In this document: positions 21,184 through 26,896 of the stretch, in pieces
Numbering within the stretch: the stretch's first letter is position 1
Layout of the letters: every line of letters starts with the position of its first letter
Source of the DNA: Candidatus Zhuqueibacterota bacterium
Lineage (GTDB): Bacteria > Zhuqueibacterota > Zhuqueibacteria > Residuimicrobiales > Krinioviventaceae
Assembly: GCA_016929295.1 (NCBI GenBank)
Contig: JAFGJB010000064.1
Coordinates: forward strand, 1 to 33,681
Direction of reading: 5' to 3'
Length of the DNA stretch: 33,681 nucleotides
The notes under the pieces: model-generated
Told to the model about the DNA's origin: nothing
Databases searched by the model: none
Seen by the model: the letters and a program-made list of their open reading frames with translations, nothing else
Translations under genes and position numbers: made by a program

Positions 21184-21762
21184 TTAAATTGGATGCAGGA
21201 TATCTTCGATAATTTCACACCAGGTATGAATGATCGTGATGTGAATTTCCTGGATGCGTTGCGAACTGGGTGAGGGCACAATCAACGATCGATCGACGAG
21301 CGGCGCCAGGCTGCCGCCGTCACGTCCCAACAAGCCAATTGTCACCAGTCCTCTGGACCTGGCATGCTGCACAGCGTTGATCAAATTTTCGGATCTGCCG
21401 CTCGTGCTCAAGACCACGAGCACATCGAGCGCTGAACCAAGCGCCTCTACCTGCCGGGAAAATATGTCTTTCATCGCATAATCATTGCCGAGGGCCGTCA
21501 AAATAGATGTATCCGTGGTCAAGGCGAGGGCCGCGATGGGCGGACGATTCCGTTTCAGTCGCCCGACCATTTCGGCCGCAAAATGCTGTGCATCAGCAGC
21601 GCTGCCGCCGTTTCCGCAGATCAGCAGTTTGCCGCCCCGCTGCAGCTTTTCAGCAATGAGCGATGCGGTTGTGAAAATTTCACTGGCATGGGACTCGGCG
21701 AACCGCATTTTCAAATGCGCACTCTCTGTAAAATGCGCTTTGATATCGTTCAATGACATCAT
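21184..21762 (-). CDS. gmhA: Phosphoheptose isomerase (SIS domain)
   Basis: This 192-residue SIS protein matches GmhA, which converts sedoheptulose 7-phosphate to D-glycero-D-manno-heptose 7-phosphate for LPS inner core or S-layer glycan synthesis. The motifs are CGNGGSAADAQHFAAEMVGR (~49-68), LSTSGRSENLINA (~118) and the C-terminal IQEIHITIIHTWCEIIE (~169-185), which supplies the catalytic His and Glu region. The length equals the E. coli enzyme. Its ATG overlaps the stop of the PHP phosphatase gene by 4 bp (ATGA). No other heptose genes (hldE, gmhB) are visible here. Confidence 0.9.
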   Translation of the reverse strand: MMSLNDIKAHFTESAHLKMRFAESHASEIFTTASLIAEKLQRGGKLLICGNGGSAADAQHFAAEMVGRLKRNRPPIAALALTTDTSILTALGNDYAMKDIFSRQVEALGSALDVLVVLSTSGRSENLINAVQHARSRGLVTIGLLGRDGGSLAPLVDRSLIVPSPSSQRIQEIHITIIHTWCEIIEDILHPI

Positions 21763-22574
21763 GGTGACTTTTGCCTGAACATTGAACGGACTCTGTCCAT
21801 GATGCTGTGAGAGTGCATGCGCAGAGAATCGTCGATGAACTCGAACGGCTCACCGATATCAATTGACTCGCCCTTGATCACTTTATCAGGATTTATCGAA
21901 AATAGCAGCTCCGCTTTTTCAGCGCCCCATTTTTTGCTCACATAGTCATAGGCTTTTCTCAGCGTCAGCGTTCGTCTCGTCAGATCGTGCGCATCTGAGG
22001 CGATGATGTGTACAGCGTTGCTGTTCATGAGCTGCTCTGCGACCGCTTTCACCTGGCTGCCAAATACTCCCAGCAAGCTCCCGGCCGTCACTTGCAGCAT
22101 CGCACCATTCTTGACAAGTTCGAGTGCTTTTCGCGGCTTGCTCAGGATGGTGCCATTGCGTTCGGGATGCGCAATGATTGGCGTATACTTTGGCGGGAAA
22201 AGAGTGAAAAATCTTGCCTCAATGGAGCCCGGAATCATGCTCATCGGAAACTCGATGAGAAAATAGCGCCCATTATTTGCCAGCGTCGCCATAGGTCGTC
22301 TATAATCAAAATAGGGTTGAACATAGAGCTCTGATCCCAGATGCAGCTTTATATTGATGCCGGCGTCTGCGGCGCGTTTTTTCAGTTCAGTGAAACGAGA
22401 GACATATTTCTCATCATTCAGCAAATCGCTTTCAGAGAGCACATGCGGTGTGGCGACGACCTCGCAGATTCCATCAGCCGCCGCTGCGTTGAGCATGCCC
22501 ATCGACATGTCCCAATCTTTGGCGCCGTCATCGACATAGGGAATGATATGACTATGTGTATCAATTAACTTCAT
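21759..22574 (-). CDS. CpsB/YwqE-like PHP-family tyrosine-protein phosphatase
   Basis: This 271-residue metal-dependent PHP enzyme resembles the CpsB/CapC/YwqE tyrosine phosphatases that control polysaccharide export. Metal ligands appear in order: DTHSHIIPYVDDGA (~5-18), ATPHV (~41), GSELY (~80), AHPERN (~135) and SDAHD (~194). There is no BY-kinase (Wzc/CpsD) in the window, so its target is unknown. The gene is coupled to gmhA, which suggests an envelope or surface glycan context. The GGGP-synthase-like gene ends 56 bp upstream. The Shine-Dalgarno before the ATG is weak. Confidence 0.88.
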   Translation of the reverse strand: MKLIDTHSHIIPYVDDGAKDWDMSMGMLNAAAADGICEVVATPHVLSESDLLNDEKYVSRFTELKKRAADAGINIKLHLGSELYVQPYFDYRRPMATLANNGRYFLIEFPMSMIPGSIEARFFTLFPPKYTPIIAHPERNGTILSKPRKALELVKNGAMLQVTAGSLLGVFGSQVKAVAEQLMNSNAVHIIASDAHDLTRRTLTLRKAYDYVSKKWGAEKAELLFSINPDKVIKGESIDIGEPFEFIDDSLRMHSHSIMDRVRSMFRQKSP

Positions 22575-22630: not shown

Positions 22631-23401
22631 TCATCCATTCACGTGCACCGCATCGGCAAATGCTCTGATCAAGGCCGGATTGGAATCTCTCTCGATGATG
22701 GTGCCGGTGACGATAAAACTCGCGCCGGCCGACACTTTTGCCCGCGCTTCATCGGGCGTCCGGATGCCGCCGCCGCAGATGATCGGCATTTCCGTGTAAC
22801 GGACAACCGCCTCAATAATCACATTGGGGACAGAATACCTGGCGCCGCTGCCGCCTTCGAGATAAACACATTGCATGCCGATATATTGAGCGGCCAGGGC
22901 GTGCGCAACGACAATATCGGGTTTTTCGCGCGGAATCGCGCGCGTATCGCTCATAAAGAGCGCTGATGTCACAGTACCGGAATCAATGAACATATAGCCC
23001 GTTGATATTGTTTCGAGATTGACCGACCTTATGAGGGGCGCCGCCACGACATGACCGCCGATGAGGGATTCGGGATTTCGACCGCTGATCACTGACAAAA
23101 ACAGGATGGCATCAGCATATTTCGACACCTGCCTGGTGCTGCCAGGAAAAATGATGAGCGGCAAACCGCAATTTTCTTTGATGCTTTTGATCGTCTCGTC
23201 AAAAACATTGGCAAGCAATAAACTACCGCCAACTAACAATGCATCAACACCTGCGCTTTCGCAGGTTTGCGCAAGTTTGATGGCGTGATTTACATCCTGC
23301 TTGTCGGGATCGATCAACACCAAATAGGCAGCCCCCTTTGTTTTTTTAATCGAAAGCAGCTGGTCAAATACTTTCACGCCGGGAAAATCCTTTCGGGTCA
23401 T
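22631..23401 (-). CDS. Geranylgeranylglyceryl/heptaprenylglyceryl phosphate synthase-like protein (GGGPS group II)
   Basis: This 256-residue TIM-barrel prenyltransferase matches the bacterial/archaeal GGGP synthase family, which joins a polyprenyl diphosphate to glycerol 1-phosphate by an ether bond. The motifs are LVLIDPDK (~27-34), ALLVGGSLL (~55), IIFPGSTRQVS (~83), FLSVISGRNP (~101), VYLEGGSGA (~178-186), ICGGGIRTPDEA (~207) and GASFIVTGTIIE (~227). YLEGGSGA is close to the YLEAGSGA of the family. In archaea the product starts membrane lipids; in bacteria its use is mostly unclear. The ATG is 11 bp after the alaS stop; a GTG at codon 9 with AAGGA upstream is an alternative start. Confidence 0.9.
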   Translation of the reverse strand: MTRKDFPGVKVFDQLLSIKKTKGAAYLVLIDPDKQDVNHAIKLAQTCESAGVDALLVGGSLLLANVFDETIKSIKENCGLPLIIFPGSTRQVSKYADAILFLSVISGRNPESLIGGHVVAAPLIRSVNLETISTGYMFIDSGTVTSALFMSDTRAIPREKPDIVVAHALAAQYIGMQCVYLEGGSGARYSVPNVIIEAVVRYTEMPIICGGGIRTPDEARAKVSAGASFIVTGTIIERDSNPALIRAFADAVHVNG

Positions 23402-23412
23402 AGCCAGTTGGG

Positions 23413-26049
23413 TCAGACTGATTTGCTATCAGCCAGGAGTTCATTAATCACATCCGCAACTTGAGACAACGCCAGTGGAAGTTTTTCAACATTTTTAGCG
23501 CCTGCCAACGCCAAATGCGGCGCACCGCCGCCGCCACCATCGGCAAACGCAGCCACTTTTCTGACGATATCACCGGCCTTCAAGCCTCTCTTGCGAATGA
23601 TATCGTGTGTGACAACGCAGGCAATGGACACTTTATCATCAATGACCGCGCCGAGAACAGCCACCCCTGAGCCGAGCCGATCACGAATGAGGTCGCCATA
23701 TTGGCGAAGATCATCGACGCCACTCGCAGGCACCTGTGCTGCGATGTAGGTGATATCACCTGCTTTTTTCGGATTCTTTAAAAGCTCGTCGACCGCACTT
23801 TTAGACAGGCCCTGCCGAAGCCGCTTCATTTCCTGTTCCAAACGCTTGCGTTCTTCGAGCACGCTGACCAGGCGTTCGCCCGTCTCATCCGGAGCACAAT
23901 TCAGCTGTGCGGCAATCCCCTCTAAATTGCGGTTACGCCTGCGAAAATAGCTGCATGTATTCATACCGGTCAAACATTCAATTCGGCGAATTCCGGCAGC
24001 GACGGATGTCTCGTTGATGATGGCAAATCCACCAATTTCGCCTGTGGAGCGAACATGTGTTCCGCCGCACAATTCTTTCGAATAGCTATCAATCTCGACC
24101 ATGCGGACGGTATCGCCGTACTTTTCGCCAAACAGAGCCGTTGCACCCCGTCTCTTCGCTTCCTGAATCGGCAACGTCACCCAGGAAGTGCGTCGATTTT
24201 CAAGGATCGTCTCATTGACAATGTTTTCGATGCGCTCGATCTCATCAGCGCGGAGGCGTTCGAAATGGGTGAAATCAAATCTCATGTGGTCAGGACGCAC
24301 CAGAGAGCCTGCCTGACTGATATGGTCGCCGAGAACGGTGCGCAGCGCTTTATGCACCAGATGTGTCACGGTATGGTTTCGCTCGGTAGCGCGACGTCTT
24401 TTGACATCGATGGTTGCGGTCACCACATCCCCGGGTTTGGGAGCATCTCCGCGGACGATCTCGCCAAAATGAACGATATGTTCGCCAATATTCTTCGTAT
24501 CCTTTACAGCGAACTGGAAAGCGTCATTTTTTATCTCTCCCGCATCGCCAACCTGACCACCGGACTCGGCGTAAAATGGTGTACGATTCAGGACGAGTCT
24601 GCCATCTGCATACTGGATAACCTGAGCTTCTGTCGAATCCATGGCATAGCCGACAAACTCACTGCCGCCGCGCGAGTCAGCAATTTGAATGGTCTGATAG
24701 GTGGCGTCCTTCAGTTTCGAAGAACGCTGGCGCTGCCGCTCCATCTCTGAATTGAATTCGGCGCTATCGACGGTCAGATTTTTTTCTGCAGCCATCAGTT
24801 GGGTGAGGTCGAGTGGAAATCCGTATGTATCATGCAGAATGAAGGCGTCTTTGCCCGGAAAGACGGCATGGCCGGTTTTACGCGCGGCCGCTGCTTTCTG
24901 TTCAAAAATCTCAATGCCGCGATCGAGGGTGCGGCCAAAACTTTCCTCCTCCGCCTTGATGACGCGAGCGATGTAATCCCGGCGTTCAACCAATTCAGGA
25001 TAAGCCTGGCCCATTTCAGCAGAGAGCGAGTCCACAAGTTTATAGATGAAAGGTTCATGCATTTCGAGAACCCGGCCAAAACGTGCTGCGCGCCGCAAGA
25101 GTCGACGCAGTACATAGCCGCGACCTTCGTTGCCGGGGATAGCGCCGTCGGCAATGGCAAACGACAAAGCGCGAATATGGTCGGCGATAACCCTGAAAGC
25201 AACTCCCTCTTCGCCGTCGGTATAGCCTTTGCCTGTCAGAGCGGCAATCTGTTCGAGCAGCGGCGTAAAAATGTCGCTGTCATAGTTTGATTTGACACCT
25301 TGCAGCACCGCGACGAGGCGTTCAAAACCCGCGCCGGTATCCACATGTTTCGCCGGCAGTGGCTGCAATGTGCCGGATGCATCGCGATTATATTGAATGA
25401 AGACCAAATTCCACAGCTCGATAAAGCGGGCGCAGCCCGAATTGACGCGACAAACATGATCGTCATCTGATGAATCACAAAAACCTTCACCGCGATCAAT
25501 GTGAATCTCCGAGCACGGACCGCACGGACCGGTGTCGCCCATTTCCCAAAAGTTGTCTTTTTTATCAAAAGCCAAAATGTGCGACGGATCGATATCCGTT
25601 TGATTTTTCCAATGATTCGCCGCTTCGTCATCGCGCGGCACACCCTCGGCCTCATCACCCTCGTAAACTGTGACGTACAGCCTGTCTTTGGGAAGTTTCC
25701 ACACCTCTGTCAACAATTCCCAGGCCCACGCGATGGCCTCTTTTTTAAAGTAATCGCCGAACGACCAGTTGCCGAGCATCTCGAAAAATGTATGATGATA
25801 GGTGTCTCGGCCAACCTGTTCGAGATCGTTATGCTTGCCAGATACGCGAATGCACTTTTGCGAATCCGCCACTCGCGGATGAGACGCCTGTCTGGTAGCA
25901 AGGAAAATATCCTTGAATTGATTCATGCCCGCATTTGTGAACAGCAGCGTCGGATCGTCCTGCGGCACAACGGGTGCGCTGGGCACAACATGATGTCCTT
26001 TGCTACGGAAGAAATTTAAAAACGACTGTCTCAATTCACTGGATGTCAT
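23413..26049 (-). CDS. alaS: Alanyl-tRNA synthetase
   Basis: This full-length 878-residue class II synthetase opens with the aminoacylation domain (SFLNFFRSKGHHVVPSAPVV; motif 2 region DTYHHTFFEMLGNWSFGDYF). The tRNA-recognition domain follows. The editing domain carries the zinc/editing set HTVTHLVHKAL (HxxxH) and CGGTHVRSTGEIG (CxxxH). A C-Ala domain with the Gly-rich DGGGGGAPHLALAGAKN ends the protein. It starts after a 148-bp gap and heads the long run down to folC. No T-box or other tRNA-sensing leader was seen in that gap. Confidence 0.98.
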   Translation of the reverse strand: MTSSELRQSFLNFFRSKGHHVVPSAPVVPQDDPTLLFTNAGMNQFKDIFLATRQASHPRVADSQKCIRVSGKHNDLEQVGRDTYHHTFFEMLGNWSFGDYFKKEAIAWAWELLTEVWKLPKDRLYVTVYEGDEAEGVPRDDEAANHWKNQTDIDPSHILAFDKKDNFWEMGDTGPCGPCSEIHIDRGEGFCDSSDDDHVCRVNSGCARFIELWNLVFIQYNRDASGTLQPLPAKHVDTGAGFERLVAVLQGVKSNYDSDIFTPLLEQIAALTGKGYTDGEEGVAFRVIADHIRALSFAIADGAIPGNEGRGYVLRRLLRRAARFGRVLEMHEPFIYKLVDSLSAEMGQAYPELVERRDYIARVIKAEEESFGRTLDRGIEIFEQKAAAARKTGHAVFPGKDAFILHDTYGFPLDLTQLMAAEKNLTVDSAEFNSEMERQRQRSSKLKDATYQTIQIADSRGGSEFVGYAMDSTEAQVIQYADGRLVLNRTPFYAESGGQVGDAGEIKNDAFQFAVKDTKNIGEHIVHFGEIVRGDAPKPGDVVTATIDVKRRRATERNHTVTHLVHKALRTVLGDHISQAGSLVRPDHMRFDFTHFERLRADEIERIENIVNETILENRRTSWVTLPIQEAKRRGATALFGEKYGDTVRMVEIDSYSKELCGGTHVRSTGEIGGFAIINETSVAAGIRRIECLTGMNTCSYFRRRNRNLEGIAAQLNCAPDETGERLVSVLEERKRLEQEMKRLRQGLSKSAVDELLKNPKKAGDITYIAAQVPASGVDDLRQYGDLIRDRLGSGVAVLGAVIDDKVSIACVVTHDIIRKRGLKAGDIVRKVAAFADGGGGGAPHLALAGAKNVEKLPLALSQVADVINELLADSKSV

Positions 26050-26197: not shown

Positions 26198-26896
26198 TTA
26201 ATCCAACGTCTGATCCGATTCGTCGGTCAAATCATCCCAATGTTCTGCGATGTCGTTGACGATATCCCAGCCAAAACCTCGCCGCATTAAAAAATCACCG
26301 ACGCGCTTGCGCGCTTTGTCTTCGTCAAGACGCATCTGCTTTTTTTTATTTTGGGCGGCAATCTGCCAGGCGACGTGATATTCATCCCGCTCTTTATAGG
26401 CTTCGGCGATTGCTCTGTCTATAGACGAGTCATCGATGCCTTTTTGCTGCAATTCCTGACGCAGCATATATCGGCCGCATGGCCTGCCGATCATCCGGTT
26501 GCGCGCGAATGCAATGGCAAATTCAACATCGTTGATGAGCTTGAGACGCAGCAACTCTTCGATCACCCAGGCTAAATCTTTGGCAGTATATCCGGATCGC
26601 GCGAGCCGGTCACGCATTTCCTTTTCGCTGCGCGGTCGGACAGCCAGCAGTCTGTAGGCTTTCTCTTTGGCGCTGCGTCGTCGTTCCAGTTCAAGGATAT
26701 GCTCTATTTTTTCTTGTGAGAGAGCATCGCCCTTGGCGATGCCCGACTGCAGCAGAACATCCTGATGGATGCCAAAGGCGAACTCTCCATTCAAAAAAAT
26801 GGAGAAACGATATTTTCGTTTCTCCTGTGGTTCAATATCTGTTATACGCCGAGTCTCGTCCTGGCGGATATTCAACGTCCTGTGGTGGGAATTCAT
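26198..26896 (-). CDS. recX: Recombination regulator RecX
   Basis: This 232-residue protein is rich in charged helices arranged as three-helix RecX repeats: [29 protein letters not shown] (shown in full over ~90-118), [40 protein letters not shown] and [17 protein letters not shown]. RecX binds RecA filaments and modulates their activity. About 60 N-terminal residues with a beta-rich segment ([22 protein letters not shown]) precede the repeats, as in several longer RecX proteins. Its ATG overlaps the recA stop by 4 bp, so the regulator is translationally coupled to its target. Confidence 0.93.

Follow-up and report, generated by a model that had tools for sequence, protein, structure and literature searches.

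The window analysed here, a stretch of 33,681 nucleotides taken at its full length, is contig C169 of a Candidatus Zhuqueibacterota MAG of 4.34 Mb, 96% complete and divided into 367 contigs. The reading frame at its centre of interest (Table 1) is confirmed to encode a real, apparently intact group II geranylgeranylglyceryl phosphate synthase (GGGPS), whose activity is predicted. A first-pass annotation made from the letters alone had placed a group II GGGPS at this position; its coordinates were exact, and the family is borne out by several models that the protein passes: Pfam PcrB (149.5 bits, E 1.3e-43, cut-off 23.9), NCBIfam NF003198 (281.5 bits, cut-off 247), the GGGP equivalog TIGR01769 (201.2, cut-off 161.55) and TIGR01768 (170.6, cut-off 113.25). 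It scores below the cut-offs of NF003201 and NF003202, two other phosphoglycerol geranylgeranyltransferase equivalogs, and the plus-strand frame over the same interval contains five stops. The best solved relatives are the GGGPS chains 5nf1 and 4mm1 (E 2e-53 to 3e-53, 184-185 bits), and 4jej scores 168.7 bits. In part after a review (PMC9385802), we take these three structures to be group II enzymes from Methanothermobacter and Flavobacterium. By its NCBIfam scores, and in the tree described below, the gene falls inside GGGPS.

Table 1. Location of the GGGPS gene and its neighbours in the window
Feature	Coordinates	Strand	Description and basis
Group II GGGPS (PcrB family)	22631..23401	minus	256 aa, ATG start; ORF, Pfam, NCBIfam equivalog, PDB relatives, active-site residues
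alaS, alanyl-tRNA synthetase	23413..26049	minus	directly upstream of GGGPS, 11-bp gap; Pfam
CpsB/CapC-type PHP-domain protein	21759..22574	minus	directly downstream of GGGPS; Pfam, 190.7 bits
GmhA-like SIS-domain phosphosugar isomerase	21184..21762	minus	Pfam; NCBIfam gmhA 204.9 bits, just under cut-off 209.45
recX	26198..26896	minus	upstream of alaS; Pfam

Gene neighbourhood and active site

The short gap behind alaS had been read correctly in the first pass, the alaS frame ending at 23413, and the envelope-glycan genes announced downstream are the CpsB/CapC-type and GmhA-like genes of Table 1, on the same strand. This arrangement recurs widely. Among the 30 best-scoring GGGPS loci of the phylum (L056-L085), on which the neighbour counts rest, a cpsB match lies downstream of GGGPS in all 30 and an alaS match upstream in 29, L070 being the only exception. 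The upstream position of recX relative to alaS is found also in L008, L010 and L015, and the GGGPS contig further carries rho, prfA and prmC. A GmhA-like SIS gene lies close to GGGPS in MAGs of Ignavibacterium (L013), Kryptonia (L014) and Zixibacteria (L015) as well, and its presence near GGGPS across groups is an unusually deep gene-order link.

According to the review (PMC9385802), GGGPS function involves an Asp that binds the metal, a Tyr/Tyr/Glu triad considered to determine activity and stereospecificity, and the phosphate site of a TIM barrel. These positions were followed in an alignment of 66 GGGPS sequences (the window protein, 30 phylum loci and 35 named loci) plus the chain from M. 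thermautotrophicus (Mt); since the review's Mt numbering of the triad disagrees with the 4mm1 chain, the triad columns were matched by motif. The window protein carries D31, S60, Y136, Y180, E182, S185, G186, G211, G212, G233 and T234, so that the Mg-binding Asp, the triad and the phosphate-binding Ser-Gly, Gly-Gly and Gly are all kept. The initial impression that all recognisable GGGPS motifs are present thus holds over this whole list, and the residues that bind glycerol-1-phosphate (G1P), whose loss would have spoken against the assignment, are retained. Apart from T234, none of the listed residues varies among the 32 phylum rows (the 30 loci, L008 and the window protein). T234 matches the Thr that group II has as the final residue of the phosphate loop; 27 of the 32 rows have Asn instead, and hence this position does not separate groups here. 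Residue F149 aligns with Mt W141, and Phe or Tyr occupies that column in 31 of the 32 rows; Mt W141 is, we assume, the aromatic anchor at the ring interface of the hexamer.

Residence in the phylum

The nearest named GGGPS belongs to a MAG of candidate division KSB1 (L008), with 91% identity and a shared gene order. The GGGPS of a second MAG named KSB1 (L010) is identical to that of G050, from the same order, and the GGGPS of a MAG named Calditrichaeota (L011) to that of G067, from the same class; the phylum as drawn here therefore holds MAGs bearing both names. It was sampled through 82 genomes, 49 of them of high quality (at least 90% complete and at most 5% contaminated). GGGPS is found in 71 of the 82 and in 48 of the 49, the remaining high-quality genome (G030) being counted as lacking it for a 20-bit match only; the automatic tally of 72/82 and 49/49 includes it.

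The GGGPS tree unites all 15 archaeal rows in a single clade (100/99), separate from the bacterial rows near the window protein. The 33 rows labelled as members of the phylum do not form a single clade: five changes are required, and Zixibacteria and some unlabelled MAGs are nested inside. Hence, it is clustering together with gene order, and not strict monophyly, that makes the case for residence. With near-universal presence in high-quality genomes, conserved neighbours and a separate archaeal clade, the proposal that this is a resident gene in a stable position, not recently transferred, is supported.

Likely genes for the later steps

Four UbiA proteins are encoded in the genome. Two look ordinary by their family scores, namely MenA (over the cut-offs of TIGR00751 and NF004751) and a protein of the decaprenyl-phosphate phosphoribosyltransferase type (over that of NF008977). 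The third, on contig C2, is of the DGGGP synthase (DGGGPS) type, and the fourth, on contig C143, is here called UbiA-B. The best PDB match of the C2 protein is the DGGGP synthase 6m31 (153.6 bits), a chlorophyll synthase coming next at 55.9; 6m31 is presumably the enzyme of M. jannaschii (Mj), which also fits the numbering used in the review. In the UbiA tree, the C2 protein is placed with archaeal DGGGPS, among them that of Lokiarchaeota (97/97), and it scores 223.6 against the strict NCBIfam equivalog cut-off of 269. The MenA and decaprenyl-phosphate transferase of the same genome sit on very long branches in this tree, with MenA falling on the DGGGPS side, and because of this long-branch warning only the split between DGGGPS and UbiA-B is used. 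The review (PMC9385802) names six motif residues (N62, D66, D70, D180, D183 and D187 in Mj numbering), and all of the 30 best-scoring phylum sequences keep them. On C2 the gene lies between nif3 and dtd-maf (L052:4805-7624), names that come from reading the sequence and not from model searches; dtd accompanies DGGGPS in 27 of the 30 loci fetched. GGGPS and DGGGPS thus reside on different contigs, each with its own conserved neighbours.

The geranylgeranyl-reductase-family protein (GGR) encoded on C143 scores 233.7 bits with TIGR02032 (cut-off 158.8), and its best PDB match is 3oz2, annotated as digeranylgeranylglycerophospholipid reductase (241 bits), followed by chains at 94-99 bits. We take 3oz2 to be the DGGGPL reductase of Thermoplasma, and the next chains to be GGR of Sulfolobus. 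Its best NCBIfam model is a Thermoplasmatales one, which it matches far under the cut-off (258.5 vs 780). After this gene comes a PgsA-like CDP-alcohol transferase (105.8 bits, cut-off 109.1). The bacterial acyltransferase PlsY is present in the genome, and a search of it with PF01864 returned no match to CDP-archaeol synthase (CarS). A second, shorter GGR-family protein, below the TIGR02032 cut-off, is encoded on contig C105 of the same genome, directly after a cyclopropane-fatty-acid-synthase-type methyltransferase (CMAS, 276.6 bits; L055:14-2119).

Across the 49 high-quality genomes, GGGPS is present in 48, a DGGGPS-type protein in 47, both in 46, GGR above 190 bits in 41 and UbiA-B in 49; GGGPS, DGGGPS-type protein and close GGR occur together in 39, and the eight genomes without GGR above 190 bits all retain GGGPS. 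For all 82 genomes the figures are 71 for GGGPS, 71 for the DGGGPS type, 68 for GGR and 79 for UbiA-B. The DGGGPS count drops best hits below 60 bits (G009, G023, G050, G067 and G071; tally at E 0.001: 76/82 and 49/49), the GGR count drops ten genomes with distant hits only (tally at E 1e-20: 78/82), and the UbiA-B count drops a 33-bit fragment in G078 (tally 80/82) and includes G035 on the strength of 61 residues at the end of a contig.

No recognisable glycerol-1-phosphate dehydrogenase

The question raised in the first-pass annotation, whether a full pathway exists, receives a divided answer: a DGGGPS-type UbiA and a GGR are found on other contigs, and no recognisable G1P dehydrogenase (G1PDH; EgsA/AraM) is found in the genome, whose MAG is 96% complete and yielded only AroB and an iron-dependent alcohol dehydrogenase (Fe-ADH). 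The two candidates from the Fe-ADH_2 search were both rejected, one being AroB (TIGR01357, 387.9, cut-off 305) and the other a generic Fe-ADH over no specific equivalog cut-off. Proteins of the G1PDH family above 90 bits occur in five of the 82 phylum genomes (L116-L120, from G048, G055, G049, G043 and G044, one of them in the genus of the window), two of these being among the 49 of high quality, and 77 genomes lack them. They score far too low with NF002022 (134-151 bits, cut-off 413). A Pfam scan, which covered L116, L117, L119 and L120, gave a full Fe-ADH_2 match only in L116 (G048; 109.5 bits), the other three matching partially at 40-60 bits. The gap at the G1P source that has been described in Cloacimonetes (PMC7852524) and in most FCB phyla (PMC6431249) thus extends over almost the entire phylum here.

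A UbiA-type prenyltransferase beside the reductase

The UbiA-B gene (L051:9294-10328, minus strand) adjoins purF and the digeranylgeranyl-reductase-type GGR on C143, and appears to be a UbiA-type prenyltransferase not described before. Relative to the copy of this genome, its two closest relatives in the alignment are 62% and 51% identical and the others 29-36%. In 19 aligned sequences N101, D105, D109, D227 and D231, which make up the NxxxDxxxD and DxxxD motifs, are invariant, as is a C-terminal YYxxRFxxxYP tail. UbiA-B stands apart from DGGGPS in the UbiA tree. Its AlphaFold model (pLDDT 86) finds structural matches in the UbiA homologues of A. fulgidus (Z 25.8) and A. pernix (23.9) and in the DGGGPS 6m31 (21.6); the predicted structure shows a UbiA fold and says nothing on substrate.

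UbiA-B lies beside GGR in 61 of the 68 genomes with GGR above 190 bits, 55 of the 61 gaps being below 350 bp, and three of the seven unpaired genomes (G035, G046 and G020) have pieces of UbiA-B and GGR near contig ends. The pairing is not obligatory, since eight high-quality genomes keep UbiA-B without a close GGR. In 28 of the 30 fetched loci purF is next to it. Strong matches, above 260 bits, were obtained in seven of the 26 genomes of named loci, and among these 26 no strong match came from Ignavibacterium, Kryptonia, Flavobacteriales/Flavobacteriaceae or archaea. In a Zixibacteria MAG (L159) the gene lies beside a cytidylyltransferase-family (CdsA-type) gene (210.6 bits), and in two unclassified MAGs (L161 and L162) it is near GGR. 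This position beside lipid genes suggests a lipid role. A weak match in the MAG bacterium TMED6 (L163:1480-2505, minus strand) also adjoins purF and keeps a YYxxRF-type tail; judged by eye its first Asp-rich motif is seemingly lost, and its function may have changed.

A proposed archaeol-type route and its alternatives

The genes, their family membership, the conserved catalytic residues, the conservation across the phylum and the co-occurrence are direct observations. For GGGPS activity, the order of steps, the head-group step and the membrane product we infer the following scheme. GGGPS would attach a C20 prenyl chain to sn-glycerol-1-phosphate at its C3 hydroxyl (G3P being a poorer acceptor); its product would pass to the DGGGP synthase encoded on C2, which would add the second chain; the digeranylgeranyl reductase of C143 would then saturate both chains, and ordinary bacterial CDP-alcohol enzymes would supply the head groups. 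The outcome would be archaeol-type phospholipids alongside normal ester lipids, for which PlsY is present. We regard it as likely that a working GGGPS feeds an archaeol-type route of this kind, parallel to the bacterial lipids. The route is favoured by the GGGPS residues, the DGGGPS-type motifs, the 3oz2-like GGR, the co-occurrence of these genes, PlsY and the Cloacimonetes precedent; it is weakened by the lack of a recognisable G1PDH and of CarS, the separate contigs, the DGGGPS and GGR scores under strict cut-offs and the absence of GGR above 190 bits in eight of the 49 high-quality genomes.

A different use of the same enzyme, which we consider unlikely, would have GGGPS produce a minor mono-prenyl glycerol anchor or carrier, for instance for envelope-glycan work with the CpsB and GmhA-like proteins, and not a membrane phospholipid. 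The phylum-wide recurrence of alaS-GGGPS-cpsB and the GmhA-like gene near GGGPS in three other groups speak for it, as do two high-quality genomes (G009 and G071) that keep GGGPS without a DGGGPS-type match above 60 bits, and B. subtilis contains an archaeal-type ether lipid, a minor component with no assigned role (PMC6431249, PMC13400652). Gene order at such distance may simply be inherited, however, and the great majority of the high-quality genomes (47/49) have a DGGGPS-type protein, whose motif residues are complete in the 30 sequences aligned; this genome has a DGGGPL-reductase-type GGR as well. It is very improbable that GGGPS and DGGGPS work backwards or help to degrade scavenged archaeal lipids, as Coleman et al. 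2019 (PMC6431249) suggest for FCB genomes without G1PDH. Most genomes of the phylum do lack that enzyme, but the Cloacimonetes homologues run forward in E. coli (PMC7852524), and a catabolic trait would not be expected to be near-universal (48/49) beside housekeeping genes.

The remaining explanations concern the identity and origin of the gene. A PcrB-type heptaprenylglyceryl phosphate synthase (group I, C35) shares the Pfam family, yet the protein reaches only 30 bits with NF003197 (cut-off 260) against its scores with NF003198 and TIGR01769, and heptaprenyl chains in the PDB give at most 39 bits as compared to 184 for the best GGGPS chains; this identity is exceedingly improbable and is ruled out by the model scores. 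There is practically no likelihood of a binning artefact or a recent transfer from an archaeon: the MAG is fragmented into 367 contigs, but that of GGGPS also bears alaS, recX, rho, prfA and prmC, the same gene order appears in other genomes and the archaeal rows form a separate clade (100/99). Gene order and tree thus rule out both at this level. The archaeol-type route stands as our preferred reading.

Relation to known systems

The gene set found here is the "mixed membrane" set with a missing G1P source, known from Cloacimonetes (PMC7852524) and from an FCB survey (PMC6431249). In view of these published cases, the KSB1 gene set joins a known kind and is ordinary for its group. According to Villanueva et al. 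(PMC7852524), Cloacimonetes carry GGGPS and DGGGPS side by side, with no EgsA/AraM and no CarS; their GGGPS is active with G1P and shows some activity with G3P, and both enzymes together yield PG-archaeol in E. coli. The first-pass statement that FCB homologues are mostly of unproven use therefore understates the literature. For the natural host itself, unlike engineered E. coli, production of such lipids is so far putative. Coleman et al. (PMC6431249) detected GGGPS and DGGGPS in each of the 12 FCB phyla of their survey and G1PDH in two, with KSB1 as a surveyed phylum outside the FCB block. That survey was the only match to a literature search for KSB1 and geranylgeranylglyceryl phosphate; the names KSB1, Calditrich- and Zixibacteria are absent from the main text of PMC7852524, and a text search of the Caldithrix abyssi genome paper, where "lipid" occurs twice, gave no discussion of ether lipids. 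A literature search, mostly short of full text, returned no earlier report of phylum-wide counts or of the UbiA-B/GGR pair.

Family and catalytic residues are held in common with the FCB group II GGGPS of F. johnsoniae (4jej) and Cloacimonetes. As in the latter (PMC7852524), the DGGGPS gene is present and G1PDH absent, whereas here the two genes are apart, GGGPS following alaS and DGGGPS being flanked by nif3 and dtd, and activity is predicted. The archaeal group II enzyme of M. thermautotrophicus (4mm1) aligns at 184 bits over residues 24-242 and shares the metal, Tyr/Tyr/Glu and phosphate-site residues; the window protein differs in having Phe for Trp at the presumed ring-interface position, and is bacterial, outside the archaeal clade. 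The C2 UbiA and the C143 GGR find their best PDB relatives in 6m31 and 3oz2, but both proteins fall under the strict NCBIfam equivalog cut-offs. With the PcrB/AraM route of B. subtilis, the bacterial use of G1P ether-lipid chemistry is shared, but PcrB belongs to group I, with a C35 product, and AraM is present there, in contrast to the lack of a recognised G1PDH here.

Implications

Two aspects are new. One is the near-universal pathway set as against G1PDH-family genes in 5/82 genomes (2/49 of high quality), which makes this case a clean example of the open question of the G1P source. The other is an apparently undescribed UbiA-type prenyltransferase, present in 79/82 genomes and beside the reductase in 61/68. 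A bolder combination of both, which we hold to be rather doubtful, is that nearly all members of the phylum build a mixed membrane whose archaeol-like lipids arise without a known G1PDH and that UbiA-B has an additional, dedicated part in making these lipids, such as that of a second ether-forming prenyltransferase or of a head-modifying one.

The "lipid divide" that sets archaea apart from bacteria has long posed a question, and this phylum looks to carry both lipid pathways as stable resident genes, without the enzyme thought to set archaeal stereochemistry. The joint residence of both pathways and the absence of G1PDH make it a good place to ask about natural mixed membranes, the enantiomer used and the enzyme that supplies G1P, and the conserved pairing of UbiA-B with the reductase offers a concrete new gene for testing.
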